Below, in pieces: positions 4,514 through 31,462 of a DNA stretch of 32,646 nt. Position numbers and translations under genes: made by a program. The notes under the pieces are model-generated. The model was not told the DNA's origin and ran no database searches. It saw nothing but the letters and a program-made list of their open reading frames with translations. Numbering within the stretch: position 1 is the first letter of the stretch; every line of letters begins with the position of its first letter. Origin of the DNA: a virus; the IMG/VR virus record IMGVR_UViG_3300033182_000964, positions 1 to 32,646 of that record; one strand, written 5' to 3'.

Positions 4514-4520
4514 AAAATAT

Positions 4521-15256: not shown

Positions 15257-15946
15257 ATGACTACGATTAGTGTTTCAGAAGAAACAATGAGAACCCTTAA
15301 AAATCTTGCTAGTATTAACCAAGGATTATTGTTTACATCAGACAACACATTATCTACTATCAATAGTAGTAATAATGTTTTATGTACTGCTAAAATTACA
15401 GAAACATTTCCTTTCGAATTTGGTATCTATGATTTAAACAATCTTTTAGGAACGTTCTCTTTGTTCGAAAACCCTCAGATTGAAGTAAATCAAGAAGAAG
15501 GTTATATGACTATTCGTGATGGTAATACTAAATCAACAACTGTTAGATATAGGTTTGCTCCAAAAAATCTAATTAAAGTTCCACCCAAAAACCATATTGA
15601 CTTACCTTCACAGGATGTTGAGTTCACTCTCGGAGTTGATACTTTATCTCAACTCCAAAAAGCTAGTTCTGTGATGGGTTTACAATATCTATTTGTAAAC
15701 GGTTCCGAGGGTATTATTACTGTTGAACTGGGTAAACCTAGTGATGCTAATAGTAATCGTTTTAGTATAGAAGTTGGTGAGACATCTCATGAATTTTCTT
15801 TCATTTTTTTGATGGATAATATCAAACTTCTTCCTGATGATTATAATGTGGTTATTTCATCAAAATGTATTTCACAGTTTACTTCTGTTAATTCTAACAG
15901 AAACTATTGGATATCTACTGAAACTGGTTCTAAATTTACTGCATAG
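15257..15946 (+). CDS. 45: gp45 sliding clamp
   Basis: This 229-aa protein has nearly the length of T4 gp45 (228 aa) and shows its start pattern (LKNLASINQGLLF) and IYDLNNLLGTFSL. In T4 the trimeric ring holds gp43 on DNA and, with gp55 and gp33, activates late transcription. TAGGAG precedes the ATG. It is followed at 10 bp by gene 44, giving the clamp and clamp-loader operon 45-44-62-regA. C-terminal LxxFF tails that could bind this clamp are present in gp43, gp55 and the 28801 protein. Confidence 0.94.
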   Translation: MTTISVSEETMRTLKNLASINQGLLFTSDNTLSTINSSNNVLCTAKITETFPFEFGIYDLNNLLGTFSLFENPQIEVNQEEGYMTIRDGNTKSTTVRYRFAPKNLIKVPPKNHIDLPSQDVEFTLGVDTLSQLQKASSVMGLQYLFVNGSEGIITVELGKPSDANSNRFSIEVGETSHEFSFIFLMDNIKLLPDDYNVVISSKCISQFTSVNSNRNYWISTETGSKFTA

Positions 15947-15956
15947 GAAGTGTTAA

Positions 15957-16904
15957 ATGAATATTGGTGAAGAATATATCTGGGCTCAGAAGTATCGACC
16001 AAAGACAGTTGATGAGTGTATCATTATAGATGAACTCAAAGATAGATTTCAGAATTTCATAGAGAAGGGGGATGTTCCTAATCTCCTACTCTATGGAACT
16101 GCTGGAACTGGAAAGACAACTGTTGCAAAGGCGGTTCTTGAAACTCTTGGTTGTGATTATATTGAAATCAACGGTTCTCTTGAAGGTAGAAATATTGACA
16201 CTTTGAGAAACACTATCAAAAGTTTTGCTAGTTCTGTTTCTTTTACTGGTAAGAGAAAGTTTGTGCTTTTAGATGAGGCAGATGGATTAAATCCAACTTC
16301 ACTACAACCCGCATTGAGAGGGTTTATGGAAGAATTCTCTTCTAATTGTGGGTTTATTTTGACTTGTAACTTTAAAGACAAGATTATAAAACCTCTACAT
16401 TCAAGGTGTAGTGTGATAAACTTTTCTATTCCTAAAGATAAAAAACCTTTGATTGCTGCATCTTTCTATAAAAGAGTTTGTCAGATTTTGATAAAAGAGA
16501 ATGTAGAATATGAAGGTGGGATAGTTGCTAAATTGATACAGAAACACTTTCCTGATTTCAGAAGAGTCTTGAATGAACTACAACAATGTGCTAGTTCCAC
16601 AGGTGGTATTACTGGTGACATTCTTGTTTCACAAGATACTGCTATTGATGAATTAGTAGTCTATCTCAAAGATAAAAATTTTACCAAGATGCGAGAGTGG
16701 GTTGTCCAATATGGTGACACAGACCCTGAAAGATTTTTTCGTAAAATTTATGACGGTATGTACCAGTGGATGAAACCAGAAACGATTCCAACAGTTGTCA
16801 TAACACTTGCTGAGTATCAATATAAAGCTTGTTTTGTTGCGGATCAAGAAATCAATATTGTTGCTTGTCTAACAGAATTGATGGCAAATGAGGTTTGTAA
16901 ATAA
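15957..16904 (+). CDS. 44: gp44 clamp loader large subunit
   Basis: This 315-aa AAA+ ATPase (T4 gp44 is 319 aa) begins WAQKYRPKTVDECI, a typical clamp-loader start. It has Walker A GTAGTGKT (47-54), Walker B LLDEADG (D106, E107) and the SRC arginine-finger motif (149-151). Four copies with one gp62 open and load the gp45 ring in T4. Its TAA overlaps the gene 62 ATG by one base. Confidence 0.97.
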   Translation: MNIGEEYIWAQKYRPKTVDECIIIDELKDRFQNFIEKGDVPNLLLYGTAGTGKTTVAKAVLETLGCDYIEINGSLEGRNIDTLRNTIKSFASSVSFTGKRKFVLLDEADGLNPTSLQPALRGFMEEFSSNCGFILTCNFKDKIIKPLHSRCSVINFSIPKDKKPLIAASFYKRVCQILIKENVEYEGGIVAKLIQKHFPDFRRVLNELQQCASSTGGITGDILVSQDTAIDELVVYLKDKNFTKMREWVVQYGDTDPERFFRKIYDGMYQWMKPETIPTVVITLAEYQYKACFVADQEINIVACLTELMANEVCK

Positions 16905-17359
16905 TGAAATTGTTTGAAGAACTTGAAGATGATGAAGTCTTAGAAGAGGAGGATAACACCAAAGAAACCTACTGCCCATTTAAATTCTTTTTGAATTCTA
17001 TAAATAATACTAAAAAAAATGTCTTACTAGAAGACACTAACGGAAAAATTGAAGAAGCTTACAATTCTTACATTATAAATAAAACTTTATCATATTTTCC
17101 TGATACTATTATGCAATGTAATACAGTCAATATGTATTTTGATTTAGATAATAAATTGAAGTATGACTTTTTACTAAATAGTATTAGAAAGAGAAAAAGA
17201 TTTACCCCTTGGGTTAAATCTACTGCCGAAGAAAATATAGAAGTTATAAAGATGTATTTCAATGTAGGAAATGAAAAAGCCAATGAAATATTATCTTTAC
17301 TTAACGAAAACCAAATAAATAAAATAAAAGAGCAGTTAAGTAAAGGTGGTAGGGAGTGA
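16904..17359 (+). CDS. 62: gp62 clamp loader small subunit
   Basis: This 151-aa protein is shorter than T4 gp62 (187 aa), like other marine homologues. It has an acidic N-terminus, YCPFKFFLNSIN, then YIINKTLSYFPDTI and a conserved basic stretch SIRKRKRFTPWVK. It is the non-ATPase subunit that completes the clamp-loader ring with gp44. It is placed between 44 and regA with overlaps on both sides (TAATG and GTGA), so its synthesis is probably coupled to theirs. Confidence 0.88.
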   Translation: MKLFEELEDDEVLEEEDNTKETYCPFKFFLNSINNTKKNVLLEDTNGKIEEAYNSYIINKTLSYFPDTIMQCNTVNMYFDLDNKLKYDFLLNSIRKRKRFTPWVKSTAEENIEVIKMYFNVGNEKANEILSLLNENQINKIKEQLSKGGRE

Positions 17360-17754
17360 ATGAAGAAATAGAACTTTTAAGAGAATTAGTAGAAGTTAGG
17401 TTGAAAAAACCAGAAGACTTTTTAAAGATTAAAGAGACTCTGACAAGAATAGGAATCTCTTCGAAAGATAAAAAACTCTTTCAATCTTGTCATATTCTTC
17501 ACAAAAAGAGTAAGTATTATATAGTTCATTTTAAAGAGTTATTTAAACTTGATGGAAAACCTTGTGATATATCAATCGAAGATATTCAAAGAAGGAACGC
17601 AATAGCTTGTCTCTTAGAAGAGTGGGATTTACTTGAAATAGTTGATAAATTAAAAGTTGAAGATAAAATTCATATAAGAAAAATGAAAATTATCCCTTTC
17701 AGAGAAAAACGTGAATGGGAATTAATTCCAAAATATAATATTGGAAAAAGCTAA
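17356..17754 (+). CDS. regA: RegA translational repressor
   Basis: This 132-aa protein is strongly similar to T4 RegA (122 aa): LKKPEDFLKIKETLTRIGI, SCHILHKKSKYYIVHFKE, and an ending WELIPKYNIG. RegA binds start-codon regions of early mRNAs, including those of replication genes in T4, and blocks their translation. The likely start is GTG at 17356 overlapping the gene 62 stop (GTGA). This gives about 15 extra N-terminal residues compared with T4, and no ATG lies closer to the conserved part. Confidence 0.95.
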   Translation: MNEEIELLRELVEVRLKKPEDFLKIKETLTRIGISSKDKKLFQSCHILHKKSKYYIVHFKELFKLDGKPCDISIEDIQRRNAIACLLEEWDLLEIVDKLKVEDKIHIRKMKIIPFREKREWELIPKYNIGKS

Positions 17755-17763
17755 TAAATAATA

Positions 17764-17792
17764 TTGACAAACATTTAAATTTATGTTATTAT
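17764..17792 (+). promoter_or_regulatory. Sigma70-like promoter for hsp20
   Basis: TTGACA, 17 bp, TATTAT, with TGT before the -10. A transcript would start near 17799, leaving a 5' leader of about 75 nt before the hsp20 ATG. Confidence 0.85.
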
Positions 17793-17802
17793 AAAAATAA
17801 CA

Positions 17803-17832
17803 CTTAGAAATGCTGAAGGTCGGGTTTCTAAG
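17803..17832 (+). other. 5'-proximal hairpin in hsp20 leader
   Basis: CTTAGAAA and TTTCTAAG form a perfect 8-bp stem around a 14-nt loop (17811-17824). It would lie only about 4 nt from the expected transcript 5' end. Confidence 0.65.
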
Positions 17833-17851
17833 TTTTGTGAAAATGAATGAC

Positions 17852-17867
17852 TTGCTTAATAAAGGAG
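17852..17867 (+). promoter_or_regulatory. Candidate ROSE-like RNA thermometer masking the hsp20 ribosome site
   Basis: UUGCU (17852-17856) can pair with the ribosome binding sequence AGGAG (17863-17867) as U-G, U-A, G opposite G, C-G and U-A, with one more U-A pair (17857-17862) and a loop AAUA. UYGCU opposite the Shine-Dalgarno with a G-G mismatch is the hallmark of ROSE thermometers, which control small heat-shock genes in bacteria. Here too the gene is a small heat-shock gene. The pairing is short and seen by eye only. Confidence 0.45.
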
Positions 17868-17873
17868 TTAAAA

Positions 17874-18284
17874 ATGCAAATGTCTAAATTTTTTGAATTG
17901 GCTATCATAGATAGCATGACTGACGGATGGAACTTTAGGAGTTCTGAATCAAATTATTACCCACCACACAATGTGTTAAAATTATCTGATGATAGTTTTG
18001 CTCTAGAATTTGCTGTGGCAGGATTTAAACAAGAGGAACTGGAAGTTCTTCTGGATAAAAATACACTCGTTATATCTGGTAAAAAGAAATCGGATAACGA
18101 ATCACAAATAACCGATGCTTCTTATCATTACAAAGGTATATCGACAAGAAGTTTTAAAAAATCTTTTCAATTGGAAAAGTATTTGGAAGTCACTAATGTT
18201 TCTCTATCTGATGGTATATTAAAAATTCTTCTAGAAAGAATAGTACCAGAAGAAGAAAAACCTAAAATTTTGACGATAAGTTAA
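17874..18284 (+). CDS. hsp20: Hsp20 small heat-shock protein
   Basis: This 136-aa protein has the alpha-crystallin domain: FALEFAVAGFKQEELEVLLDKNTLVISGKKK, then RSFKKSFQLEKYLEVTNVSLSDGILKILLER, and a C-terminal tail with PKILTIS, holding an I/L-x-I-type motif used for oligomer assembly. It is an ATP-independent chaperone. Marine T4-like phages often carry it near regA; a role in virion assembly or stress is inferred. The ATG at 17874 has AAGGAG at 6-nt spacing. The upstream in-frame ATG at 17847 has no ribosome site and is rejected. Confidence 0.93.
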   Translation: MQMSKFFELAIIDSMTDGWNFRSSESNYYPPHNVLKLSDDSFALEFAVAGFKQEELEVLLDKNTLVISGKKKSDNESQITDASYHYKGISTRSFKKSFQLEKYLEVTNVSLSDGILKILLERIVPEEEKPKILTIS

Positions 18285-18295
18285 TTTTTAATAAA

Positions 18296-18319
18296 GTGGG
18301 AAGGGTAAAATCTTCCCAC
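18296..18319 (+). terminator. Hairpin after hsp20, possible terminator
   Basis: GTGGGAAG pairs with CTTCCCAC (8 bp) around an 8-nt loop, 11 bp after the hsp20 stop. No T run follows, so termination may be weak; it could also protect mRNA ends. A late promoter starts at the next base. Confidence 0.6.
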
Positions 18320-18327
18320 TATAAATA
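18320..18327 (+). promoter_or_regulatory. T4-type late promoter TATAAATA for amidase
   Basis: This exact box ends 5 bp before the ATG at 18333. With T4 spacing the transcript would begin at or next to that ATG. Confidence 0.6.
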
Positions 18328-18332
18328 AACTG

Positions 18333-18830
18333 ATGGTACATGCAAATTTTATTTTACTTTTAACAATTTTTTTAACAAGTGGTTTTTATTCAGATTTTAT
18401 TTTCGAGAAACCTACTAGAACTGTTAAAAAAGTTTTCATTCATTGTAGTGACAGTGATTGGAGACACCATGATGATATATCAGTGATTAGAAAATGGCAT
18501 GTACAGGAAAAGGGGTGGTATGATGTTGGATATCACTACTTCATAAAAAAGAATGGAACAATTCAGAAAGGTAGGAATTTAGAGTTCACACCTTCATCAC
18601 AAAAAGGTCACAATTCTAGAACTATATCTATTTGTCTGCACGGAAAAGAAAAATTTACTGAAAGGCAATTTGAATCATTAAGAAAATTATGTCTAGAAAT
18701 ATATAGAGCATATAACGGTAGAATAACTTTTCATGGGCATAGAGAAATTACAGATGAGAAAACTTGTCCGAATTTTGATTACGTTGAAGTTCTTAATTTA
18801 GACGAACATGGACGTATGAAGGGAATATAA
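18333..18830 (+). CDS. N-acetylmuramoyl-L-alanine amidase (PGRP/T7 lysozyme type)
   Basis: This 165-aa protein has an Amidase_2/PGRP domain from about residue 32. Zinc ligands are His37 (VFIHCS), His136 (HGHRE) and Cys145 (TCPNFD); GYHYFI (Y67, H68) and GRN follow the family pattern. The first 20 residues are strongly hydrophobic (ANFILLLTIFLTSGF), which suggests a signal peptide or signal-anchor; the n-region lacks basic residues, so export may be atypical. It would cut the bond between muramic acid and the stem peptide, acting as an endolysin. No ribosome site is visible, and the late promoter would give a leaderless mRNA. Confidence 0.9.
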   Translation: MVHANFILLLTIFLTSGFYSDFIFEKPTRTVKKVFIHCSDSDWRHHDDISVIRKWHVQEKGWYDVGYHYFIKKNGTIQKGRNLEFTPSSQKGHNSRTISICLHGKEKFTERQFESLRKLCLEIYRAYNGRITFHGHREITDEKTCPNFDYVEVLNLDEHGRMKGI

Positions 18831-18831
18831 T

Positions 18832-19131
18832 ATGAAAATTTATGCAATGAGAATGAAAACTGGTGAAGAAGTTATTTTCAGAACAGAAACAGATTTTGAT
18901 AAATTAGTCGAATCCATCAATCAGAATGTTTTGATTAAAGTTGAAAAACCTGTAACCATGTTACCAGTTGAAAATAGAGTTACGTTTGTTCCTTGGGTTT
19001 TCTTTGCTAAAGATGACAACTTCACTTTTAGCACTCAAGATGTAGTTCTGTTTTATTATCCACAAGAACAAATTGAATCCGAATACAGGAGAATGACTAG
19101 CGGAATTATTACCAGTCCATCTTTAGCATAA
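18832..19131 (+). CDS. Conserved small beta-rich protein (possibly Sm-like)
   Basis: This 99-aa protein begins MKIYAMRMKTGEEVIF, followed by a charged segment and FVPWVFFAKDDNFTFSTQDVVLFYYPQ. The strand pattern with a start like MKIYxxRxxTGEExI is shared with short conserved proteins placed near gene 43 in cyanophages and suggests an Sm-like or SH3-like barrel. It begins 1 bp after the amidase stop, so it is co-transcribed with it. Function unknown. Confidence 0.65.
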   Translation: MKIYAMRMKTGEEVIFRTETDFDKLVESINQNVLIKVEKPVTMLPVENRVTFVPWVFFAKDDNFTFSTQDVVLFYYPQEQIESEYRRMTSGIITSPSLA

Positions 19132-19136
19132 ATACC

Positions 19137-19165
19137 TTGACTTTTTTACCGTATTGTATTATAAT
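19137..19165 (+). promoter_or_regulatory. Sigma70-like promoter for gene 43
   Basis: TTGACT, 17 bp, TATAAT, 20 bp before the DNA polymerase ATG, with GTGAGGG as ribosome site. Confidence 0.82.
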
Positions 19166-19185
19166 AGTAATCAAAGTGAGGGTTT

Positions 19186-21672
19186 ATGCGTTTCTATACT
19201 TCCGTTAATTCGGTCAATGATAAAATTTTAGTTAAAGGTTTCGTTAATGGTGAAAGGTTCATTGATAAAGTTCCTTATCAACCTTCTATGTTTATGAAAT
19301 CTAATGCGGGTGATAAAACACCTTATAAGGATATCTATGGTAATCCTCTGAAAAAGATAGTGTTCCAGAGTCTCCAAGAAGCAAAAGATAAGTGTTTCCA
19401 AAAAAGCACAAGGGAAGACTACTATGGTATGGCAAACTTCGAATACTCTTACATTGCCGATGAGTGGCCTGATGAGATAGAGTTTGACCCTAAACTAGTA
19501 AAGAAACTCTATCTCGATATTGAGGTTTCATCTGAGAACGGTTTCCCCAAACCAGAAGAAGCTTCCGAACCTGTTACGGCAATAACTCTTTCTAATGGAG
19601 ATATGTATTTTGTTTTTGGGTTGAAAGAATATAAACCACATAAAGAAAAGATTTATTATAAAAGGTTCAAATCTGAGCATGAACTTTTAGAAGGTTTTAT
19701 CAAGTTCTGGTCTGGTTTTGAGGTAGATGTTATCACTGGCTGGAACACTAAGTTCTTTGATATTCCTTACCTAGTCAATCGTATCAAGGTTCTTTTAGGT
19801 GATAAAGAATCTAAAAAACTATCCCCGTTCGGTATAGTGAGAGAAAGGATGGTTCAAAAATATCAAATTGCTGGGCCATCTGGGGGAACACAACAGACTT
19901 ACAATATCTTGGGAGTTTCTGATTTAGACTATCTTGAAATGTATAAAAAGTTCACTTTCACTAATCAAGAAAGTTACAGACTTGATCATATTGCTTTCAT
20001 TGAACTTGGTGAAAAGAAATTAGATTATTCAGAATATGAAGGGCTTTCTGACTTGTATGAGAAAGATTATCAAAAGTTTATTGAATATAACGTAAAAGAC
20101 GTTGAGTTGATTGTGCGACTTGAAGAGAAACTTGGTTTCATTGAGATGGTTCAAACGATGGCATATGATGCTAAGGTGAATTATGATGATACATTCTTTC
20201 AAGTTCGTATGTGGGATGTTATTATTTTCAATGCTCTGAAGAAGTATAAGATTGTGATCCCTCCAAAGATTAAACAACCCAGTCAACCATTTGAAGGTGC
20301 TTATGTGAAAGAACCTAAATCTGGATACTATGAGTGGGTGACTTCTTTTGACTTGAACTCTCTTTATCCTCATATTATTATGCAGTGGAACTCATCTCCA
20401 GAAACACTCAAAAGAAAAAATGACGATGTAACTGTCAATGATTTACTCAATCAAGTCTATGAACCAGAAATAAGTGAGAATGAGTCTATGATGGCGAATG
20501 GTTCTGTTTATGATAAGACGAGAACAGGCATTCTTCCTGCTTTAATGTCAAAGATGTATGAAGATAGAAAGAAATACAAAAAGCAGATGATAAAACTGCA
20601 AAAGGAGTATGAGAAAACAAAAGACCATAACACCAAAATGCTTGCTGACAAGTATTACAATCTTCAGTTAGTCAAAAAGATTCAGTTGAACTCTGCTTAT
20701 GGTGCTATTGGCAATCGTTTTTTCCGTTTCTTTGATGTTCGTATCGCAGAAGGCATCACAACTTCTGGTCAGTTGGTCATTCGTTGGGCAGAGAAAAAGA
20801 TGAACGAGTTTCTGCGAAAAAGGTTTGGTAATGATGAAAAAGATTTCGTGATTGCTTCTGATACAGATTCTTTATATCTTGATTTGTCCGATTATGTTAG
20901 TGAGATGGAAACAAAAGATAAGTCCGAAATAGCAGACAAATTGAATCTAATTTCTCAAAATGAGATTCAACCTTATATGGAACAGTTCTATGATGAATTG
21001 AAAAACTATCTCAATTGCCCAAAACAAAAAATGGTGATGGAAAGAGAGGTTATCGCAGACCAAGGTATATGGATTGGTAAGAAGCACTATGTTCTCAATG
21101 TTCTTGATTCTGAAGGGGTTAGATATGAAAAACCTAAACTCAAGATGATGGGAATATCTGCTGTCAAGAGTTCTACTCCTGCTATCTGTCGTGATAACAT
21201 TAAGAAATCTATTGACATTCTGATGAATGGTAATCAGGAAGAGTTGTTTGATTTTTTGGATACTGCCAAAGACAGTTTTATGAAGGCTCCTGCTGAAGAT
21301 ATTATGTTTCCTAGGGGTGTCAATAATATCCAAAAATATACAGGTCAGGATACTCTCTATACGAAGGGGACACCTATCCACGTGAAGGGTGCATTACTCT
21401 ACAATAGGTTCCTAAAAGAAAAGAACCTTGAAAAGAAGTATGAAAAAATTGAAGAGGGTGAAAAAATCAAGTTCTGTTATCTGAAACAACCGAATCCTGT
21501 TTTCGATACAGTTTTTGCCATCAAAGATATTCTTCCAAAGGAGTTCGAGCTTCAAGAATTTATCGACTATGAAAAACAATGGGAGAAAGCTTTCCTCGAA
21601 TCTGTTGAAGATATTGTTGATGCTAGAGGTTGGAAGACAAAAAAATCTTCAAGTTTATTTGACTTTTTCTAA
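19186..21672 (+). CDS. 43: gp43 DNA polymerase (family B)
   Basis: This 828-aa protein (T4 gp43 is 898 aa) carries the 3'-5' exonuclease motifs DIE (111-113), GWNTKFFDIP and YNVKD. The polymerase motifs are DLNSLYP (389-395, motif A), KKIQLNSAYG (497-506, motif B) and SDTDS (558-562, motif C), with KKHY later. The C-terminus is KKSSSLFDFF (819-828), matching the clamp-binding tail of T4/RB69 polymerase (KKASLFDMFDF). It replicates the phage genome with gp45/44/62, gp41 and UvsX. The codons of its last residues also contain the -35 box of the next promoter and lie inside a 78-bp repeat. Confidence 0.98.
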   Translation: MRFYTSVNSVNDKILVKGFVNGERFIDKVPYQPSMFMKSNAGDKTPYKDIYGNPLKKIVFQSLQEAKDKCFQKSTREDYYGMANFEYSYIADEWPDEIEFDPKLVKKLYLDIEVSSENGFPKPEEASEPVTAITLSNGDMYFVFGLKEYKPHKEKIYYKRFKSEHELLEGFIKFWSGFEVDVITGWNTKFFDIPYLVNRIKVLLGDKESKKLSPFGIVRERMVQKYQIAGPSGGTQQTYNILGVSDLDYLEMYKKFTFTNQESYRLDHIAFIELGEKKLDYSEYEGLSDLYEKDYQKFIEYNVKDVELIVRLEEKLGFIEMVQTMAYDAKVNYDDTFFQVRMWDVIIFNALKKYKIVIPPKIKQPSQPFEGAYVKEPKSGYYEWVTSFDLNSLYPHIIMQWNSSPETLKRKNDDVTVNDLLNQVYEPEISENESMMANGSVYDKTRTGILPALMSKMYEDRKKYKKQMIKLQKEYEKTKDHNTKMLADKYYNLQLVKKIQLNSAYGAIGNRFFRFFDVRIAEGITTSGQLVIRWAEKKMNEFLRKRFGNDEKDFVIASDTDSLYLDLSDYVSEMETKDKSEIADKLNLISQNEIQPYMEQFYDELKNYLNCPKQKMVMEREVIADQGIWIGKKHYVLNVLDSEGVRYEKPKLKMMGISAVKSSTPAICRDNIKKSIDILMNGNQEELFDFLDTAKDSFMKAPAEDIMFPRGVNNIQKYTGQDTLYTKGTPIHVKGALLYNRFLKEKNLEKKYEKIEEGEKIKFCYLKQPNPVFDTVFAIKDILPKEFELQEFIDYEKQWEKAFLESVEDIVDARGWKTKKSSSLFDFF

Positions 21673-21717
21673 AAGATATGTTACTATAATACTATAGGAG
21701 TTAAAAATATGGATTTT
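21640..21717 (+). repeat. 78-bp direct repeat, copy 1 (end of 43 + promoter + start codon)
   Basis: It is identical to 22140-22217 except for one base (A at 21657, G at 22157). It holds the last codons of gene 43, a promoter, the ribosome site GGAG and the first codons ATGGATTTT of the next gene. The two copies are exactly 500 bp apart. Confidence 0.97.
21659..21687 (+). promoter_or_regulatory. Sigma70-like promoter of inserted gene
   Basis: TTGACT, 17 bp, TACTAT with TGT before the -10. The -35 overlaps codons for the gp43 C-terminal LFDFF. Confidence 0.65.
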
Positions 21718-22140
21718 AGTTATATTGTAGTACATGAAACTCTGTTAAACAAAGAAGCAATTATTGAACACTACTCAGAGAAAGACGGTGTAGAAGTCAA
21801 ATATGTTTGTACTACAGATTTAAAAGAAAGTGACTGTCCTGTAGATGTGTTCTACAGAGAAACTCCACATCCAGAGTTTGGTAACAGATATTTTGGGTTG
21901 TACTGGGATCAAGTTCGTGGACATTTAATGATTACCAATGCTGATGTAGTTGAAGAACTTGAGTTTGGCATGGTAGAATGCGATGGCAAATATTATTACA
22001 GTCAAAGTCGTCACGATTACAAAAAACTAGACAACGGCAAGATGATTGATGGAGGTCGAGCATATATTAAAACCAACCGAGGATGTGATGCTGTTATGCG
22101 AATCATCGATGGCAAGTTTATTGCTAAGGATGGCAGATGA
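21709..22140 (+). CDS. Inserted 143-aa conserved phage protein, unknown function
   Basis: This 143-aa protein begins MDFSYIVVHETLLN, where the MDF comes from the repeat shared with UvsX. Conspicuous later stretches are FYRETPHPEFGNRYFGLYW, ITNADVVEELEFGMVE, YSQSRHDY and DGGRAYIKTNRGCD. These aromatic, Gly-rich patterns look like a compact beta-rich protein of a type I have a vague memory of from cyanophages, but I cannot name a function. It stands between gp43 and UvsX, whose neighbourhood is direct in relatives, and is bounded by two 78-bp direct repeats. Promoter and ribosome site are copies of those of uvsX. It is clearly a real gene by its codon pattern. Confidence 0.8.
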   Translation: MDFSYIVVHETLLNKEAIIEHYSEKDGVEVKYVCTTDLKESDCPVDVFYRETPHPEFGNRYFGLYWDQVRGHLMITNADVVEELEFGMVECDGKYYYSQSRHDYKKLDNGKMIDGGRAYIKTNRGCDAVMRIIDGKFIAKDGR

Positions 22141-22172
22141 AAAAATCTTCAAGTTTGTTTGACTTTTTCTAA
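22137..22172 (+). CDS. Possible 11-aa peptide equal to the gp43 clamp-binding tail
   Basis: The second repeat copy leaves an ORF reading M-KKSSSLFDFF-stop, the exact C-terminal ten residues of gp43. Its ATG overlaps the stop of the inserted gene as ATGA, and AAGGA (22126-22130) lies 6 nt upstream, an effective-looking ribosome site. The single base difference from copy 1 is synonymous (Leu TTA/TTG). It may be only a recombination scar, or a translated peptide that competes for gp45. Confidence 0.35.
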   Translation: MKKSSSLFDFF

Positions 22173-22217
22173 AAGATATGTTACTATAATACTATAGGAG
22201 TTAAAAATATGGATTTT
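22140..22217 (+). repeat. 78-bp direct repeat, copy 2
   Basis: This is the second copy of 21640-21717 (77 of 78 bases identical). It supplies the promoter, ribosome site and first codons of uvsX. Confidence 0.97.
22159..22187 (+). promoter_or_regulatory. Sigma70-like promoter for uvsX
   Basis: This duplicated copy of the promoter at 21659-21687 (TTGACT, 17 bp, TACTAT, extended -10) lies 21 bp before the uvsX ATG. Confidence 0.65.
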
Positions 22218-23225
22218 GAAAGTATTATTTCTGCTGCTGGTAATGAGTTTGCTCAGACTGCCAGTGAGATGGAAGAAACACAATCATACATTGATACTGG
22301 AAGTTACACCTTGAATGCCATTTTATCTGGTTCTATTTACAAAGGACTTCCAGGAAATAAAGTTACTGCTTATGCAGGTGAACAGGCAACAGGGAAGACC
22401 TTTTTTGTTTTTGAGGCTGTGAAGAACTTTCTCCTTTCTAAACCCGAAGGAAGAGTTCTATTTTTTGAGACTGAGAATGCCTTGGAAAAAGGAATGTTTG
22501 ACTCTCGTGGAATTGACTCGTCCAGGATAACTATCTTCCCTGTTGCCACTATTGAAGAATTCAAGTCACAAGCAGTTAGGATTTTAGATGCCTATCTTGC
22601 TATAAAAGAATCTGAAAGACCTGATTTGATGATGTGTCTCGATTCACTAGGGATGTTGTCTACGTCCAAAGAGGTGAATGACACAACAGAAGGATCGGAT
22701 AAAGCGGACTTTACGAGACCTAAACTGATCCGTTCTGCTTTCCGAGTTCTCACTCTCAAACTCGGAAGAGCTAATGTCCCTCTTCTTATTACCAACCACA
22801 CTTATACGAGTGTTGGTAGTTTTATCCCTACTCAAACATCTGCTGGAGGTGGCGGTCTCAAATATGCTGCCTCCAGCATTGCTCTTTTAAGTAAGAAGCA
22901 AGTGAAGGAAGGGACAGAGAAGGTCGGAAACATAGTGAAAATAAAAATGGAGAAGTCGAGATTTACCAAAGAGGGTTCATCTATAGAAACTAAAATAGAC
23001 TTTGAGAAGGGTCTTGATAGATATCACGGAATGATTGAACTTGGATTAGAAGCAGGAGTGTTTCAAAAGAGTGGTACAAGGATTTTAGTCGGAGAATCCA
23101 AACTCTACCCAAAAGCAATCTACGATGACCCAGAAAAGTATTTCACAAAAGAAGTGCTTGACAAAATAGATGATTATGTGATAAAAAGATATAGTTACGG
23201 AAAAAATAGTACAACGGAGGAATAA
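22209..23225 (+). CDS. uvsX: UvsX recombinase (RecA-like)
   Basis: This 338-aa protein (T4 UvsX is 391 aa) has Walker A GEQATGKT (57-64), Walker B LMMCLDSLG (D145), the DNA-binding loop region with SAGGGGLKYAAS, and a C-terminal region matching the T4 family. It forms filaments on single-stranded DNA with UvsY and carries out strand exchange for recombination-dependent replication and repair. The 3' end overlaps the gene 41 ATG by one base (TAATG). Start at 22209 is set by GGAG in the repeat. Confidence 0.96.
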   Translation: MDFESIISAAGNEFAQTASEMEETQSYIDTGSYTLNAILSGSIYKGLPGNKVTAYAGEQATGKTFFVFEAVKNFLLSKPEGRVLFFETENALEKGMFDSRGIDSSRITIFPVATIEEFKSQAVRILDAYLAIKESERPDLMMCLDSLGMLSTSKEVNDTTEGSDKADFTRPKLIRSAFRVLTLKLGRANVPLLITNHTYTSVGSFIPTQTSAGGGGLKYAASSIALLSKKQVKEGTEKVGNIVKIKMEKSRFTKEGSSIETKIDFEKGLDRYHGMIELGLEAGVFQKSGTRILVGESKLYPKAIYDDPEKYFTKEVLDKIDDYVIKRYSYGKNSTTEE

Positions 23226-24610
23226 TGCGAGTTGAGAGAATCATAATATCGGGGATTCTCAAAAACGATTCTTACAGAAAGAAAGCTTTCCCACATCTTC
23301 ATGAAGAATATTTTCACGATAAGAAAGAATTGAGTATTTTTGAAATAGTTAAGAAACATATCTCGAAATATAAGAGTGCCCCTGTAAAAGATGAACTATT
23401 GACAGAAGTTCAAACAATTCAAATGACAGACAAGGATGTCGAAGATTGTCAAGAGATTGTAAAAGAACTTTTCAATATCGAAACATCTGATGAACAATGG
23501 TTATTGGAAAAAACCGAAGAGTGGTGTCAGGAGAAGTCTGTATATAATGCAGTCATGGAGTCTATTTCCATTATTGATGGCACTGTAAAGAAAAACAAAA
23601 ACATCATTCCAGATATTCTAAAAGAAGCTCTAGCAGTCACATTCAAGATAGAACTTGGACATGATTATATTGAAGATGCTGATGCCAGATTTGAGTATTA
23701 TAACAAGAAAGATGATAAGAAAATTCCATTCGGAATAGACTTGCTCAACAAAGTTACAAGAGGTGGTATTGCTTCGAAGACTTTGAATGTGGTTATGGCA
23801 GGAACAAATGTTGGAAAATCTTTCTTTATGACTGACTTTGCTTCACACTGTCTTGCTAATCAAAAGAATGTTCTGTATATCACTCTTGAGATGAGTGAAG
23901 AAGAACTTGCAAGAAGGATTGATGCCAATCTATTAAACATAAACATAAATGAACTTGATGAAGTTCCTACAAATATGCTCAAGAAAAAACTTGAAGAGAG
24001 GAGTAGGAATATCAAGGGTAAATTAATATTTAAAGAGTTTCCGACAGGTAGAGGAAGTGCAGCAGATTTCAATAAATTGCTTGATGAACTTGAATTAAAA
24101 AAGGGATTCAAACCCGATATTCTTTTTATTGATTATATCAATATCTGCGCTTCCTCTACTCTTGGAACAAAATATAAAGCAGATAAATACTTATATATCA
24201 AAACTATTGCTGAAGAACTCCGAGGTTTGGCAGTCGATAAAGATATTCCTATCTTCACGGCAACACAAACAAATCGAGAAGGATACGGTGATTCGGATCC
24301 AGATTTGACAAACACAAGTGAATCTTGGGGATTACCTGCTACTGCTGACTTTATGTTTGCTATGATGACTGATGACCAGTTAGAACAACTTTCCCAGTTT
24401 CGAATCAAACAACTCAAGAACAGATATAATCGTAAAGACTCGCATAAAAGATTCTGTATCGGTTATGACTTGATGAAGATGCGACTTTTTGATATTGATG
24501 ATGGAGGTATTGGTTCTGTATCAACAGGTCAACAAGATGACACTCCAAGTCACGGCAGTGGATTTCTTCAAAAGAAAAAGACTCTTGATTTTTCTGGCAT
24601 TTCAGTTTGA
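23225..24610 (+). CDS. 41: gp41 replicative helicase (DnaB-like)
   Basis: This 461-aa protein (T4 gp41 is 475 aa) has an N-terminal helical domain, Walker A GTNVGKS (193-199), LYITLEMSEEELARRIDANLL (motif H1a region), Walker B ILFIDYI (D303), TATQTNREG and an arginine-finger region with KNRYNRKDSHKRF. It is the hexameric 5'-3' helicase of the T4 replisome and works with the gp61 primase and the gp59 loader, neither seen here. The start overlaps the uvsX stop (TAATG). Confidence 0.96.
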   Translation: MRVERIIISGILKNDSYRKKAFPHLHEEYFHDKKELSIFEIVKKHISKYKSAPVKDELLTEVQTIQMTDKDVEDCQEIVKELFNIETSDEQWLLEKTEEWCQEKSVYNAVMESISIIDGTVKKNKNIIPDILKEALAVTFKIELGHDYIEDADARFEYYNKKDDKKIPFGIDLLNKVTRGGIASKTLNVVMAGTNVGKSFFMTDFASHCLANQKNVLYITLEMSEEELARRIDANLLNININELDEVPTNMLKKKLEERSRNIKGKLIFKEFPTGRGSAADFNKLLDELELKKGFKPDILFIDYINICASSTLGTKYKADKYLYIKTIAEELRGLAVDKDIPIFTATQTNREGYGDSDPDLTNTSESWGLPATADFMFAMMTDDQLEQLSQFRIKQLKNRYNRKDSHKRFCIGYDLMKMRLFDIDDGGIGSVSTGQQDDTPSHGSGFLQKKKTLDFSGISV

Positions 24611-25565: not shown

Positions 25566-25599
25566 ATTAATATAAGGTAAGAAAAGGTAGGATTATGAA
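25560..25599 (+). repeat. Leader repeat A (left flank of cassette)
   Basis: This 40-bp stretch from the -10 box to the start codon matches 29288-29327 in 35 of 40 positions, including TATAATATTAATATA and GGTAAGAAAAGG. Confidence 0.85.
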
Positions 25600-27805
25600 C
25601 TCCAAAAAAGCAAAAAATAGACTTAGAAAATTAAAACAGTATGCCAAAAAAATATTTAATGAAGAACAACCCAAGGAAAGAAAGATGGAAAGAAAGATTT
25701 ATATTCTTGAAATAGATCCTGATCAGAAAAAATCTATTAAAGTTGGTCAAACTGATGGATGTGTTGAAAAACGCAACGCTGAAACAATGACCAACGCTAG
25801 TTTACGCCGTAGAGAAGGTACTAGTGCTTGGTGGGAATCGGCATATAAATACGATGGTACAAGATTTACTGATACTGACTTCATAAAATACTTACTTGAA
25901 AAGGGTTACGTATTCGAACGTAATAATAATGATAATAGATCTGAGTGGGTTGAGTTTGATCCAGAAGGTAAACGAGTTACATCCAATCAAATTAAAGATG
26001 AATTAAAGAAATTTATGGGTAGACCAGTATACAACCCTTTAGTACTTAGACCTGCACAAAGATATGTTATTGATGAAATCCAAAAACTGATAGATCGTAA
26101 TTGCAAGTACATTAATGCAGGATTGTGTGTGCGATTAGGTAAAACCGTTATTTCATTAGAAACAGCTGCAAGAAATAATTTTATGCCTGTATATATTGGT
26201 AAAAACTTAACTTCACAAACTAGTTCTAAAATTGATAACGACACATTTGGAATTGTACCAAATTTACTTACAGTCAGTATACATGGTGGAGAAAAAGTAA
26301 AAAAGATTATTGATCAAATTGAAGCAAAAAATGAAAAGAATTTGCCGATTCTTTTCGTTATTGACGAAGTTGATGACGCTTCACATACTAAAAATTCAAT
26401 ATCCACTATTAAACCAATAGTAGAACATTTCAAATCAAATGGAAATCTTGGTTGCGTTATTACTATGAGTGGCACAAGAATTCATAGAGGTGCAAAAGTT
26501 CTTAATCAAATTTCTGAAGGTGGATATAAGGAAGTTTTACTATATTATCATGAAATGCAGATATTACAACCCGAAGTGACATGTAACCGCAATTTCACTC
26601 GTATCTGTTTTTATGATAAATCGAATCCAGATCGTTTTTTAAATATTTCTGATTCATTAAAATGTGACACAGGTCGTAAAGATTTAGTTGAATTCTTTAA
26701 AAGTATATTGTCACGTGACAATAATTTCAAAATTGAATCTAATGATGAGTTCCCTCATTGGTTTGTTAAAATTTGTGCAAACAAACTAGATGGTGTGGGT
26801 ATATTAATAAAATTACTTAATAAAAACTGTTCTGAAATTGATGGTCAAAAATATGTTTATTTTGCGATTAATGGCAAAACCACAAAAAATAAAACTGCTC
26901 AAAAATATTGTCAAAACCTTATTCAAAAAAACAAGGATAAAATTTGCGTTTTTATTTCACAAGGTATGGCTACAACTAGTTTCAGTGTAAAGGGTATTGG
27001 TAATAGTCTTGTGTTGACAGATAATAAGTTAACTGCCGATGATATACAGGCATTACATCGAAGTGCTACTTGGGCTAAGGGGAAAGATGAATGTAATATG
27101 GTTGTTGTAACCACAAATGGTGATGAAGAATACAAATATGATGATGTATTTGAAAATGAGATTAAATCGGATAATCCAGAAGATCAGAAAATAAAGTATA
27201 AAAGTGTTTTAAATAATAACAGTATAACTCACATTATTACCAATGGTACTACCAAAGGCAGTAGTAAGCATTCAGTAAAAATTGAAAGTAAAAATGTTGC
27301 AGATTATATTGATAAAAAACAAAAAGCAATGAAATCTGTTAATAGTCTAGTGATTGCAATATATGGTGAAGATGTTGATCCTGAGTTACGTGAATGGATT
27401 GTTACTAATGCTAAAGGTTTAATCTCAAAAAGTAAAAAATTTAAAAGTGGAAAACCAGACTCAATTGAATCAGATTCAAGTCACAAAGATAATAAAGAGA
27501 CCTCAAAAGAAAAAAGTGGTAAAACTTCTAAAAAAGAAATAGAAATCACTCGACAGTTCGTGAAAGACTCTATAAATTTACCTGCAATTGCTAAAGAACA
27601 GGGAATTGGTATTCGAGATTTGTCTAACCTTAATGCGAATTTGGGTGTGGATTTAGAATTATTTTTTGATGTGTATGATTCTGTAGAAGGGTTTAAATGT
27701 GGTATTGATTTAATCTATAGGGATTGTGATGACAGGAAGTATTTAAGAGAGTGTATTGAGAGAACGATGTTTAAAAATGATTTTCTTGACACATTAATGC
27801 CTTGA
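25595..27805 (+). CDS. GIY-YIG-type (T5orf172-like) nuclease fused to SF2 helicase; restriction-like
   Basis: This 736-aa protein has an N-terminal domain (about 33-122) with IYIL (35-38), KVGQT (49-53), Arg60 and EW (117-118), the layout of T5orf172/GIY-YIG nucleases. An SF2 core follows: LRPAQRYVIDEIQ, motif I VRLGKT (179-184), motif II DEVD (257-260), motif III TMSGT (290-294), and QALHRSATWAKGK (from 485) as motif VI. A Lys/Ser-rich linker (about 620-655) leads to a C-terminal domain (about 656-736). It is followed by two methyltransferase genes, so a DNA restriction or translocase role is inferred. An alternative start exists at Met31. Confidence 0.75.
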   Translation: MNSKKAKNRLRKLKQYAKKIFNEEQPKERKMERKIYILEIDPDQKKSIKVGQTDGCVEKRNAETMTNASLRRREGTSAWWESAYKYDGTRFTDTDFIKYLLEKGYVFERNNNDNRSEWVEFDPEGKRVTSNQIKDELKKFMGRPVYNPLVLRPAQRYVIDEIQKLIDRNCKYINAGLCVRLGKTVISLETAARNNFMPVYIGKNLTSQTSSKIDNDTFGIVPNLLTVSIHGGEKVKKIIDQIEAKNEKNLPILFVIDEVDDASHTKNSISTIKPIVEHFKSNGNLGCVITMSGTRIHRGAKVLNQISEGGYKEVLLYYHEMQILQPEVTCNRNFTRICFYDKSNPDRFLNISDSLKCDTGRKDLVEFFKSILSRDNNFKIESNDEFPHWFVKICANKLDGVGILIKLLNKNCSEIDGQKYVYFAINGKTTKNKTAQKYCQNLIQKNKDKICVFISQGMATTSFSVKGIGNSLVLTDNKLTADDIQALHRSATWAKGKDECNMVVVTTNGDEEYKYDDVFENEIKSDNPEDQKIKYKSVLNNNSITHIITNGTTKGSSKHSVKIESKNVADYIDKKQKAMKSVNSLVIAIYGEDVDPELREWIVTNAKGLISKSKKFKSGKPDSIESDSSHKDNKETSKEKSGKTSKKEIEITRQFVKDSINLPAIAKEQGIGIRDLSNLNANLGVDLELFFDVYDSVEGFKCGIDLIYRDCDDRKYLRECIERTMFKNDFLDTLMP

Positions 27806-27830
27806 CATTGTATTTTATTTATGGTATTAT
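27802..27830 (+). promoter_or_regulatory. Sigma70-like promoter of methyltransferase genes
   Basis: TTGACA, 17 bp, TATTAT with TGG before the -10. Its -35 overlaps the stop of the helicase gene, so the methyltransferase pair can be expressed separately from it, as is usual for modification genes. Confidence 0.8.
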
Positions 27831-27869
27831 ATGTATATGAGATTAAAAAAGGGGACAGGAGTAACTAAG

Positions 27870-28841
27870 ATGTCAAAACTAATTATTTGTAGTAATCAAA
27901 ATATTCTAAGTTATTTTGAACGTGTTGCTAAAGGTGACACAATTGTTCTAGAAGATGATGTATCTAAGAAAAGATGGCTCCTTTTTCTTGAAAAATGTGA
28001 AATTTACGAGAGTGATGTTAATTTTATAACACAAGAGGGGTTTCTGGATATGAAAGATGTTAAATTTGATGCTATTATAGGTAATCCACCTTACAGTTTA
28101 GCTGGAAATAAAACTGGTAAAAGAGGAAGAGCTGTAACTTTATATGATAAATTTTATAAGAAATCTGTAGAACTTAGCCCTATTGTTTATATGATAGTTC
28201 CAGATACTAGTAGAAATACACAATCCTTTAATAATTTTATTCAAAATATTGATAATTGTAATAAAGTTATCCCAATTGACGACAATGTATTTGATATTAA
28301 TCAAAAAGTTTGGTGTTTAGTTAAAGATAAAAATTGTAAATCCCCTAAAGCAATTAAAATTGAAGATGTTAAATGGATTCCAAACGAATTTCCTAAACAG
28401 AGAGTTCAATGGTCTAAAGGTAAATTAAATGTGACGGGAAATAGGAACTTGTTAAAAAATATTGAAGGGGAATATACCGTCTACCACAAGATAAATGGTA
28501 AAGGTTGTATCAAATATTCAAGTGAATTCATAGATCCTAAGAAATGCTTTCCATCCGATGGATATGCTGTAATTATGCCACAACAGATTCAAAAAAATGG
28601 GTGGACTAGAACCGATATTATTAAATGTGATGGGAAACAATCTGCAATGAATGGTGTGAATTTAGCTTTTGTTAAAACTAAAGAAGAGGCTGAATATTTG
28701 GTTAAATATATGAAGTCTGATAAATTTATAAATCAAGCTTTGTCATATTGTGGTGGACAAAATAATGTGAAACTTGGCACATTGAAATTAATTAACATGG
28801 ATGATTATGAATTTGGAAAAGATAAGAAAACATCTCTTTGA
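27870..28841 (+). CDS. Adenine methyltransferase catalytic/target-recognition half (NPPY)
   Basis: This 323-aa protein has the catalytic motif IV of N6-adenine DNA methyltransferases, IIGNPPY (69-75), followed by the usual helix with YDKFYKKSVEL and YMIVPDTS, then a region like the target recognition domain of Eco57I-type enzymes (YAVIMPQQIQKNGW, TKEEAEYLVKYMKSD). It lacks the AdoMet-binding motif I upstream of NPPY. That part is found instead in the next gene. The start is 27870, since GGAG (27859-27862) precedes it; the ATG at 27831 overlaps the promoter. The protein is probably active only with its partner. Confidence 0.8.
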   Translation: MSKLIICSNQNILSYFERVAKGDTIVLEDDVSKKRWLLFLEKCEIYESDVNFITQEGFLDMKDVKFDAIIGNPPYSLAGNKTGKRGRAVTLYDKFYKKSVELSPIVYMIVPDTSRNTQSFNNFIQNIDNCNKVIPIDDNVFDINQKVWCLVKDKNCKSPKAIKIEDVKWIPNEFPKQRVQWSKGKLNVTGNRNLLKNIEGEYTVYHKINGKGCIKYSSEFIDPKKCFPSDGYAVIMPQQIQKNGWTRTDIIKCDGKQSAMNGVNLAFVKTKEEAEYLVKYMKSDKFINQALSYCGGQNNVKLGTLKLINMDDYEFGKDKKTSL

Positions 28842-29259
28842 AAGAGAGTATATGAGTGGTATTGATAGAGAAGAACTTCGTGTAAAAACTACAGCAGAAA
28901 TATTCACTCCAACAATCCTTGTGGAGGATATAATAAATGGAATGGATCCAGAATTATTTGAAGATGAGAGTAAAACCTTTTTAGACCCTTCTGTTGGTGA
29001 TGGTCAAATTTTAGTTAGTGTATTCTATAGGAAATTACAGAATGGTATTGAATTCGAACAAGCTCTTTCCACTTTATATGGTGTTGATTTAATGCAAGAT
29101 AATGTGGATTTATGTCGTGAAAGGTTATTATGTGGTCGTGAAGACCTTAGACATATAGTTGAAAATAATATCGTTTGTGCAGACGCTCTTCGATATCATT
29201 ACCGTTTTGATGGCACTCCTGCATACGATCAAAGTCCAGATTTACTTTCTTTTTTTTAA
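28801..29259 (+). CDS. Adenine methyltransferase AdoMet-binding half
   Basis: This 152-aa protein (if the first ATG is used; ATGs at 28807 and 28852 are also possible) carries motif X-like TAEIFTPTILVED (FTP at 35-37), motif I FLDPSVGDGQ (DPSVGDG 62-68), motif II YGVDL (D96) and motif III VCADAL (D128), and stops where an intact enzyme would continue to NPPY. NPPY is in the preceding gene, so the enzyme is split between motifs III and IV with the halves in reverse order. The genes overlap by 41 bp in different frames. The C-terminus SPDLLSFF has the LxxFF clamp-binding pattern. Confidence 0.8.
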   Translation: MIMNLEKIRKHLFEREYMSGIDREELRVKTTAEIFTPTILVEDIINGMDPELFEDESKTFLDPSVGDGQILVSVFYRKLQNGIEFEQALSTLYGVDLMQDNVDLCRERLLCGREDLRHIVENNIVCADALRYHYRFDGTPAYDQSPDLLSFF

Positions 29260-29576: not shown

Positions 29577-30848
29577 ATGAGAGAATATTCAATTACAACA
29601 GACATTATACTTGAATCTAAAAGCAACAAAAATTTACATTTAGAGCATTTAGAAGACTATCCATTGAATGATGGGTATAAGGGTATAACAAAAACTGTTT
29701 CTTTCCTAAATTCAGTATTTGACCTCCTAAAAGGTAACTCGGAACTTAATGTTGATGTAACCGTAAAGTATGACGGTGCACCTGCAATATTCTGTGGAAC
29801 AGACCCCTCTGATGGTAAGTTTTTTGTAGGAACCAAATCTGTATTTTCTAAGAGTTCCAAACTTGTCAAATCATTATCCGACATATCTAAATACGGATAT
29901 CCTGCAGGTTTAGCAGATAAGTTGAAAGTAGCATTCACAGAACTTTCCAAAATAGGAATCAAGAATGTCTTGCAAGGGGATATGATGTTCACCTCTTCCG
30001 ATATACAAAAGAAGAAGATAAACGGCATTCCTCACATAATGTTCCAACCAAATACCATAATCTATGCTGTTCCCGAAAAGTCCGAACTAGGAAAGAAGAT
30101 TATGTCTTCTAAAATAGGTATAGTTTTCCATACAACTTATTCTGGGGACTCATTGGAAAGTATGCAAGCATCTTTCGGTGCTAATGTGAGTCAACTGAAA
30201 AAAGTTTCTTCTGTTTGGTTTGATGATGCATATTATAAAGATGTCACTGGATTCCTTTTTTCTGGTTCCGAAACAGATGAAGTTTCCAAGAAGATAAAAG
30301 AGTTAGAAAGACTCGGAAATTCTATAGGTAAGAAATCAATGTCCAACATCTTTGAAATACAGAATCAATTCAAGTCTAATGAAATGGGAGCAGGGATTAA
30401 AACATTTTTCAACTCCAAAATTAGGTCAGGGTCATTACCTTCTGCTAATCTTAAATCTTTGAATGAGTATTTCTCACATTTCCAAAATCACTTCCAAAAT
30501 AAAATAATATCAAAATTGAAAACTGAAAAGTCTAGAGCACAGAAACTGGAAAGAATGAACAGTATGTTGACTCTTATGAAAAGAGAAACTTCTGCTCTAG
30601 TTAAACTCCTTAAATTTATGAAGTTGACGATAGAGATTAAAAATATGTTGATAAGGAAGTTAGAGAAGAACTCATCGAAAGGTCTTGGAACTTTTGTGAT
30701 TGATGATAAAGGTTTTAGAGTGACGACTCCAGAAGGGTTTGTTGCTATTGATAGGTCTTCTGGTGGAGCAGTTAAATTTGTTGACAGGTTGGAGTTCTCA
30801 AGACTCAATTTCACTGTTGATAAGAATTGGTCAAAGGCAAGTGTATGA
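29577..30848 (+). CDS. Ligase-like nucleotidyltransferase with long helical insert
   Basis: This 423-aa protein contains the covalent nucleotidyltransferase motif I VKYDGAP (K64, D66, G67), FFVGTKSVF (82-90), VLQGDMMF (131-138, like motif III) and, at the far end, PEGFVA (385-390, like motif IV) and VKFVDR (399-404, like motif V). In ligases these motifs lie within about 200 residues. Here a region of roughly 150-200 residues, mostly helical, separates III from IV. Related long proteins of unknown function are common in cyanophage T4-likes. An RNA or DNA ligase-type reaction is plausible but unproven. The ATG has AAGGA at 7 nt; the stop overlaps the next ATG (ATGA). Confidence 0.65.
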   Translation: MREYSITTDIILESKSNKNLHLEHLEDYPLNDGYKGITKTVSFLNSVFDLLKGNSELNVDVTVKYDGAPAIFCGTDPSDGKFFVGTKSVFSKSSKLVKSLSDISKYGYPAGLADKLKVAFTELSKIGIKNVLQGDMMFTSSDIQKKKINGIPHIMFQPNTIIYAVPEKSELGKKIMSSKIGIVFHTTYSGDSLESMQASFGANVSQLKKVSSVWFDDAYYKDVTGFLFSGSETDEVSKKIKELERLGNSIGKKSMSNIFEIQNQFKSNEMGAGIKTFFNSKIRSGSLPSANLKSLNEYFSHFQNHFQNKIISKLKTEKSRAQKLERMNSMLTLMKRETSALVKLLKFMKLTIEIKNMLIRKLEKNSSKGLGTFVIDDKGFRVTTPEGFVAIDRSSGGAVKFVDRLEFSRLNFTVDKNWSKASV

Positions 30849-31462
30849 AAAAAGTTGTTATGATATTTGGAAGGTTTAATCCTCCAACAACTGGGCATAA
30901 ACTTTTGGTTGATAAGAGTTTTAAGTTAGCAAAAAAATTAGGGGCAGAACACGCCATATTCACTTCAAAAACTAATGATGCTAAAAAGAACCCCCTATCA
31001 GTAAATGACAAAATAAAATATATGAAACTTTCTTTTCCTAAACATAGTAAGCACATTCATCACCCCGACGATATTGGAACTCGGTCTCCTGCTGAAGTTC
31101 TTGAAATGTTGAGTGAAAGGGGTTATGAGGAAGTTTATTTTATGGTTGGGTCGGATAGAGTTAAGTCCTTTGAAGGTATGACAAAATCTATGCAAGATAA
31201 AGGATACACAAAATTCAAGAAGATAGAAATAGTTTCAGCAGGTGAAAGAGACCCTGATGCAGATGATGTTTCTGGAATGAGCGCATCTAAAATGAGAAAG
31301 TTTGTTTTAGATGATGACTTTGACTCTTTTTCACAGGGAACTCCTATGAATACTAAAGATGCTAGAAATATGTTCGACGACATCAAAAAGGGAATGAAAC
31401 TTAACGAGAATAATTTAGAAAAGATGTTATTTGATAATTTCTTTAATTTGAATGAGGAATGA
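30845..31462 (+). CDS. Nucleotidylyltransferase (HxGH superfamily)
   Basis: This 205-aa protein begins with the cytidylyltransferase/NMN adenylyltransferase fold: VVMIFGRFNPPTTGHKLLV, with TTGH (15-18) in the HxGH place, PLSVNDKIKYM, YFMVGSDRV, and SASKMR (146-151) matching the ISSTxxR motif. The family transfers a nucleotide from NTP to a phosphorylated substrate (NMN, pantetheine phosphate, glycerol phosphate); the substrate cannot be told here. The start at 30845 overlaps the upstream stop (ATGA), so it is coupled to the ligase-like gene. The tail after about residue 165 is extra and ends with FDNFFNLNEE. Confidence 0.8.
   Translation: MKKVVMIFGRFNPPTTGHKLLVDKSFKLAKKLGAEHAIFTSKTNDAKKNPLSVNDKIKYMKLSFPKHSKHIHHPDDIGTRSPAEVLEMLSERGYEEVYFMVGSDRVKSFEGMTKSMQDKGYTKFKKIEIVSAGERDPDADDVSGMSASKMRKFVLDDDFDSFSQGTPMNTKDARNMFDDIKKGMKLNENNLEKMLFDNFFNLNEE

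Follow-up and report, generated by a model that had tools for sequence, protein, structure and literature searches.

A probable DrdVI-type restriction-modification system in a T4-like phage fragment, with its adenine methyltransferase divided between two genes

Introduction

What kind of enzyme is encoded when the catalytic motif of an adenine methyltransferase lies in one gene, the cofactor motifs lie in the next, and a helicase-nuclease gene precedes both? This question is raised by a viral DNA fragment of 32,646 nucleotides (IMG/VR record IMGVR_UViG_3300033182_000964, positions 1 to 32,646; here called the window), in which three genes, R, A, and B, follow one another at 25595-29259 (Table 1). 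The original prediction, read from the sequence, took A and B for a single enzyme, permuted and divided between motifs III and IV, in an arrangement considered unusual. Here we argue that, on balance, the three genes probably constitute a phage-borne restriction-modification (R-M) system of the DrdVI type, in which A and B form a two-subunit adenine methyltransferase and B supplies S-adenosylmethionine (AdoMet).

Results

The distribution of motifs over the two genes is as originally described. Motif IV of A reads DAIIGNPPY and is accompanied by a target-recognition-like region, and neither motif I (DPxxGxG) nor another G-loop could be read anywhere in the open reading frame (ORF; 27831-28841). 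B carries EIFTP, FLDPSVGDG, YGVDL, and CADAL, ends in RYHYRFDGTPAYDQSPDLLSFF, and lacks motif IV, the ORF stopping just where that motif should come. Consistent with this, Pfam Eco57I matches A from profile position 51 onward only (E 7.6e-10), while B matches PHROGs 11371, 21201, and 4376 (E 9e-20 to 4e-16) and, weakly, N6_Mtase (0.0012), and its profile hits two gamma-class enzymes, CamA and M.BseCI, in their N-terminal halves. Both proteins match Eco57I and N6_Mtase in Pfam, not N6_N4_Mtase (PF01555). Among 16 diverse relatives of B, the invariant columns are residues of motifs X, I, and II (R27, T31, E33, F35, T36, G66, G68, D100, and N101), so that the cofactor site of B is under selection.

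The exact position of the split requires more nuance. A break after motif III and before motif IV fits B, as well as those relatives in which A begins at motif IV, such as P-SSM2_036 (MKFTLAIGNPPY) and Aeh1 (MHFDYMIANPPY), but not the window A, in which about 70 residues precede NPPY and resemble a degenerate beta1-beta3 half. In four relatives these residues are conserved, with N9, L27-E28, S32, and W36 invariant and the G-loop absent, and in a low-confidence model of the window proteins they fold as beta-alpha-beta-alpha-beta. An early combined alignment (A3), which was not used for modeling, placed the A rows onto the B half, the N-terminal half of A and B being alike.

Table 1. Features of the R-A-B locus and its proposed clamp partner in the window
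Feature	Position	Strand	Description
R gene	25595..27805	+	736 residues; N-terminal T5orf172/GIY-YIG nuclease-like domain and superfamily 2 (SF2) helicase (translocase-nuclease); counterpart of R.DrdVI
Gene A (M2)	27831..28841	+	336 residues (323 from the alternative start at 27870); motif IV NPPY and target-recognition-like region
Degenerate AdoMet half of A, N-terminal	27870..28070	+	Equivalent of beta1-beta3; no GxG; LED/LEN motif II-like acid kept
Motif IV (NPPY) of gene A	28083..28094	+	Read directly, within DAIIGNPPY
Gene B (M1)	28801..29259	+	152 residues; gamma-type methyltransferase motifs X (FTP), I (DPSVGDG), II (VDL), and III (ADAL)
A/B overlap	28801..28841	+	41 nucleotides, from ORF coordinates; B in +1 frame; similar short overlaps in relatives
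C-terminal tail of B, PDLLSFF	29236..29256	+	Putative sliding-clamp-binding motif; LxxFF pattern as in gp43 and gp55 C termini
gp45 sliding clamp	15257..15946	+	Proposed partner of the B tail; PHROG 223, E 2e-64

Relatives of A were reached through B, since A itself, used as the query in tblastn against phages and in a scan of viral contigs, yielded no matches. With B, tblastn retrieved 82 phage records (cyanophages and Aeromonas, Vibrio, and Prevotella phages, including Lak megaphages), to which a second query added Klebsiella phages. An ORF with N(P/Y)P(Y/F), in the form NPPY, NPPF, or NYPY, lies directly upstream of B in 81 of 87 nonredundant IMG/VR viral loci; this gene carries NPPY in P-SSM2, S-CAM7, and phi-ST2 and NYPY in S-SKS1. 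Motif I is kept in 91 of the 94 nonredundant viral B proteins, and NPPY occurs in none of them. Fused homologues, a check suggested at the outset, do exist: in the Aeromonas phages Aeh1, CC2, and phiWae14, A and B are one protein, in the order A-B. Relatives in which R and A are fused still encode B separately. Judging from these sequences, the A-B arrangement occurs widely in phages (T4-like, cyano-, jumbo, and others) and has a characterized bacterial relative in DrdVI, and the label "unusual" must be dropped.

A few loci deviate. In a 484-kb phage (LR756508, locus L080, 4133-10317), two A-like genes flank one B, the upstream one (278 residues) starting at motif IV and the downstream one encoding a 1256-residue nuclease-helicase-A protein, with another ORF between. 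In ACG-2014f (L082, 5968-8284), B lies upstream of its NPPY gene with one ORF between, unlike in most relatives. Prevotella phage Lak-A2 (L077, about 3488-6429) has an intact B, and its upstream partner is not one ORF in the standard code, which may reflect a recoded stop in Lak phages. The matches at L062-L065 were set aside as short C-terminal fragments beside an unrelated DPPY gene.

By a simple pattern test, the upstream A proteins fall into three kinds: the N-terminal half is absent in 9, motif I is degenerate in 50, and GxG is intact in 22. Because of this last group, we rejected the notion that B simply complements a missing half in every relative, and B is not always the sole possible AdoMet site.

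The short overlap of A and B is likely to serve translational coupling. Programmed +1 frameshifting to join the two (A ends CTT TGA, cf. the RF2 gene) was considered and rejected, as the A ends and the frames vary among relatives.

Structural modeling supports a joint domain where the two parts are naturally fused. The AlphaFold2 model of the Aeh1 fusion (predicted local distance difference test [pLDDT], 76.9; predicted template modeling score [pTM], 0.73) aligns over residues 1-373 with the beta-class enzyme M.BceJIV (Z 10.6; root mean square deviation, 3.7 Å; 162 residues), with TTHA0409, M1.HpyAVI, CcrM, and EcoP15I Mod close behind. Gamma-class M.TaqI aligns with the first 238 residues only, i.e., the A half (Z 8.0), and Foldseek on its own gave weak matches (best E 1.8e-3). 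As the alignment with beta-class enzymes extends across both halves, the fused relative is predicted to build one catalytic domain from both parts, with the motif order of the beta class and a gamma-type recognition region. Indeed, the order of motif IV, recognition region, and motifs X-I-II-III in CcrM, M.BceJIV, and EcoP15I Mod is that of gene A followed by gene B, whereas by sequence A and B are gamma-type (Eco57I/N6_Mtase, CamA, M.BseCI, and, for the A half, M.TaqI). For the window proteins, linked into one chain through a single +1 reading word, the model is weak (pLDDT 63, pTM 0.43), and the placement of A relative to B in it is not usable. The shared active site that was anticipated thus finds support in the relatives; for the window pair itself we infer it.

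The helicase-nuclease next door was noticed in the original prediction, which did not recognize it as part of the same unit. In an alignment with R.DrdVI and NatCom, the N terminus of R shows the invariant Y, KxGxT, R, and EW of the GIY-YIG/T5orf172 core, and its helicase part reads as a Walker-A-like RLGKT and a DEVD box; BLASTP matches it to R.DrdVI across the nuclease domain (E 2e-5). Among the 71 loci whose A has an N-terminal half, 61 have an R homologue immediately before A or joined to it in one protein. Of the loci in which A begins with motif IV, 8 offer enough upstream sequence for a comparison, and no R homologue was detected in any of them (Fisher P 1.7e-6, with kinship between loci ignored). 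Three loci of the window A subtype with an adjacent R (L167, L203, and L227) encode R proteins that are 38 to 45% identical to the window R over the full length. This pattern argues that the helicase-nuclease belongs to the same unit as A and B. In Klebsiella phage PKO111 (L078, 3488-4975) and Vibrio phage phi-ST2 (L003, 2298-3956), A carries an N-terminal GIY-YIG-like domain and no helicase, possibly a minimal version of the system.

A characterized counterpart was reached by searching for bacterial homologues via phage NatCom_35866, which led to plasmid pDrdVI of Deinococcus wulumuqiensis 479. DrdVI, filed as Type IIG, consists of a fused translocase and restriction endonuclease with separate M1 and M2, with a GIY-YIG domain in one relative (PMC4996451), and M1-2.DrdVI, cloned and expressed in E. 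coli, methylates GCAGCC to give N6-methyladenine (PMC6430315). All three window proteins are homologous to its components: B to the bacterial M1 family (profile Prob 99.7, E 7.6e-26; BLASTP 2e-13), A to M2.DrdVI (E 8e-7, around NPPY), and R as above. In both cases the genes are adjacent and co-oriented, with a small M1 that has motifs X-III and no IV, an M2 with NPPY and a recognition region, and a GIY-YIG-SF2 translocase. The gene order differs, being M1-M2-R in DrdVI and R-A-B in the phage. Moreover, phage B lacks the long C-terminal region of bacterial M1 and ends in an LxxFF tail, and the N-terminal half of M2.DrdVI is full length and has a conserved motif I Lys, whereas that of phage A is shortened and differently degenerate. 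At 80 bacterial loci (L087-L166), CGxGN is kept in all 80 M1 proteins, and in 64 of 64 readable M2 proteins the motif I G-loop has a Lys where its first Gly would be (FLDPxxKSGVF), NPPYQ being intact. Together, these two features suggest the same division of labor in bacteria and phages, with the cofactor loop in M1/B and the catalytic motif in M2/A. In the window A, the DPxxKSGVF motif, a feature derived here and not family-defining in the literature, is altogether absent. Searches of the Protein Data Bank with the M1 and M2 sequences of DrdVI gave no match.

A feature that had been overlooked is the C terminus of B. The window C termini of gp43 (SSSLFDFF), gp55 (NLVPFFDDEE), and B (DLLSFF, preceded by a variable linker) are alike, and the C termini of gp43 and gp55 are established T4 clamp ligands with similar, interchangeable hydrophobic-acidic ends (PMC2988020). 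The tail of B is such a short hydrophobic-acidic C terminus, as found in gp43, gp55, and gp33. Within single genomes, polymerase and B tails resemble each other, e.g., TLESFFS/TLDQFFN (L034), SLDDFF/NLDQFFENKK (L211), TLESFFG/GLEAFF (S-CAM7), and SLESFFT/GLEGFFV (ACG-2014f), and likewise in another phage type, TFQSLFEF/TWNQLFEI (L183) and TFNQLFEFEA/VWNNLFEYMEK (L169). Over 26 genomes, matched pairs outscored shuffled pairs (permutation P 0.0004). A strict tail pattern, picked after the tails were seen, matches 31 of 96 B tails compared to 16 of 648 other ORFs, kinship being ignored; in the window it is found in two further genes in addition to gp43, gp55, and B.

The proposed partner gp45 opens a T4-type replication block (15257-24610: gp45, gp44, gp62, regA, Hsp20, amidase, gp43, uvsX, and gp41), which, with gp55, uvsW, and gp46/47 upstream, identifies the window as a fragment of a T4-like phage. 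A nucleotidyltransferase-like protein (30827-31462; FGRFNPPTTGH) ends in LEKMLFDNFFNLNEE, another possible clamp-type tail. Among bacteria, M1 relatives of Lactococcus and Lactiplantibacillus (L083, 2824-3516; L086, 1273-2193) have the bacterial beta-clamp motif close to the C terminus, as QLSLF and QMSLF. A beta-clamp motif in all M1 proteins was rejected, since the close relatives of DrdVI M1 mostly carry E(G/D)SLF, and we therefore argue the clamp idea for phages only.

Discussion

That A and B belong together follows from their conserved adjacency, the natural fusions, and the model of the fused form. In the DrdVI-type system that we favor, B would bind AdoMet and, likely, gp45; A would dock with B, read the target, and flip the base into NPPY; and the two together would methylate the amino group of an adenine at one specific sequence, with R, the GIY-YIG-helicase, as an ATP-driven cutter of DNA without the mark. 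We infer that B gives AdoMet to A in this phage and that the target base is adenine.

Several observations weigh against this assignment of roles. The 22 A proteins with an intact GxG still adjoin a B gene. E28, at the motif II position, is an invariant acid in the window A subtype, and, judging from this residue, such an A might still hold AdoMet. In the low-confidence model, residues 1-156 of A alone align with class I methyltransferases over the entire fold (Z up to 9.7, 138 residues). Since A by itself is modeled with a complete Rossmann domain, its fold would not depend on B, and since the G-loop is absent, the window A appears in the model to be a fold of full length whose cofactor half has degenerated, rather than a clean half. 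Hence, the division of one enzyme into two proteins is less tidy than originally envisaged. In addition, the DrdVI paper does not demonstrate a requirement for both M genes.

These same points, along with the presence of an N-terminal half in A wherever R is linked, would fit a scheme in which A is a complete methyltransferase whose degenerate half holds AdoMet in a nonstandard manner, while B is accessory and either licenses restriction as a sensor of AdoMet or serves as a clamp tether. We consider this unlikely, though it is the most serious alternative. The window-type A lacks any G-loop, the AdoMet half can come only from B where A starts at motif IV, the Lys in the bacterial M2 G-loop is invariant, and the fused Aeh1 model makes one domain out of both parts.

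The role of R is a separate matter. Conceivably, A and B only protect phage DNA, while the helicase-nuclease serves host DNA breakdown, recombination, or homing, without there being an R-M system. In line with this, the eight loci whose A begins at motif IV have A-B pairs without a detectable R, a GIY-YIG domain is all that A is fused to in phi-ST2 and PKO111, and T5orf172 domains have been proposed, in a passage of PMC7824862, to act in recombination. Yet at 61 loci R immediately precedes A or is fused to it in frame, the set of R, A, and B is that of the characterized DrdVI system, and the R proteins that accompany the window A subtype resemble the window R over their full length, which makes this reading more improbable still. 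Finally, a decaying pair, in which A has lost its AdoMet motif, B is a relict, and neither works, would account for the degenerate motif I of A but is very hard to reconcile with B cofactor positions conserved in 91 of 94 loci, a layout kept in very distant phages, and three intact ORFs in the window.

How does the preferred DrdVI-type system relate to those already known? In Type ISP enzymes such as LlaGI and LlaBIII, a nuclease, an SF2 helicase, a gamma-type methyltransferase, and a recognition region work together. These enzymes, however, have unpermuted motifs and an Mrr-type nuclease, all in a single chain, whereas the window set comprises three separate ORFs, a GIY-YIG-like nuclease, and a separate AdoMet half. 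Apart from DrdVI itself, what was already known is the permuted form in jumbo phages: one sentence of PMC7824862 mentions permuted M.EcoKI-like (clade 2) adenine methylases there (APU01582.1). These probably include the fused proteins of the Aeh1/CC2 type. The likeness lies in a permuted amino-methyltransferase in large phages; that passage is silent on the split two-gene form, the link to a GIY-YIG-helicase and DrdVI, and the clamp-like tail. In the open-access literature searched, we did not find a connection between the permuted jumbo-phage form and DrdVI, a split phage form within an R-M unit, a cofactor half of A lost by degrees, the Lys of bacterial M2, or the polymerase-like tail of B.

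The tail similarities suggest that B is probably tethered to the clamp. Its LxxFF tail would dock on gp45, and methylation at the fork would reach new phage DNA ahead of R. A broader proposal, which is possible and which we advance tentatively, is that B acts as a sliding-clamp ligand, the cofactor half of the methyltransferase being held on the clamp by a tail copied from, or converged on, that of the polymerase, and brings in A. Nascent phage DNA would then be marked by an R-M enzyme with swappable specificity in which B is the constant platform and A the exchangeable module. Less favorable to a clamp role, the tail similarity is partly phylogenetic (P 0.028 within T4-like phages and 0.135 within the rest), and the tail is absent in Aeh1, CC2, and several jumbo phages.

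In summary, phage "hypothetical proteins" such as P-SSM2_036/037 and Aeh1ORF084c, along with many cyano-, jumbo, and other phage genes, gain a likely function and are tied to a little-described R-M system. An amino-methyltransferase can be seen in stages of splitting and permutation, i.e., as one fused protein; as two proteins of which A starts at motif IV; and as two proteins with a duplicate half that is degenerate in some relatives and intact in others. With several such stages visible, it becomes testable how the beta-class order arose from an enzyme of gamma type. If true, the clamp tail of B would be a prokaryotic parallel to the PCNA-binding motif of DNMT1 and would explain how a phage that encodes a restriction enzyme could spare its own newly made DNA.
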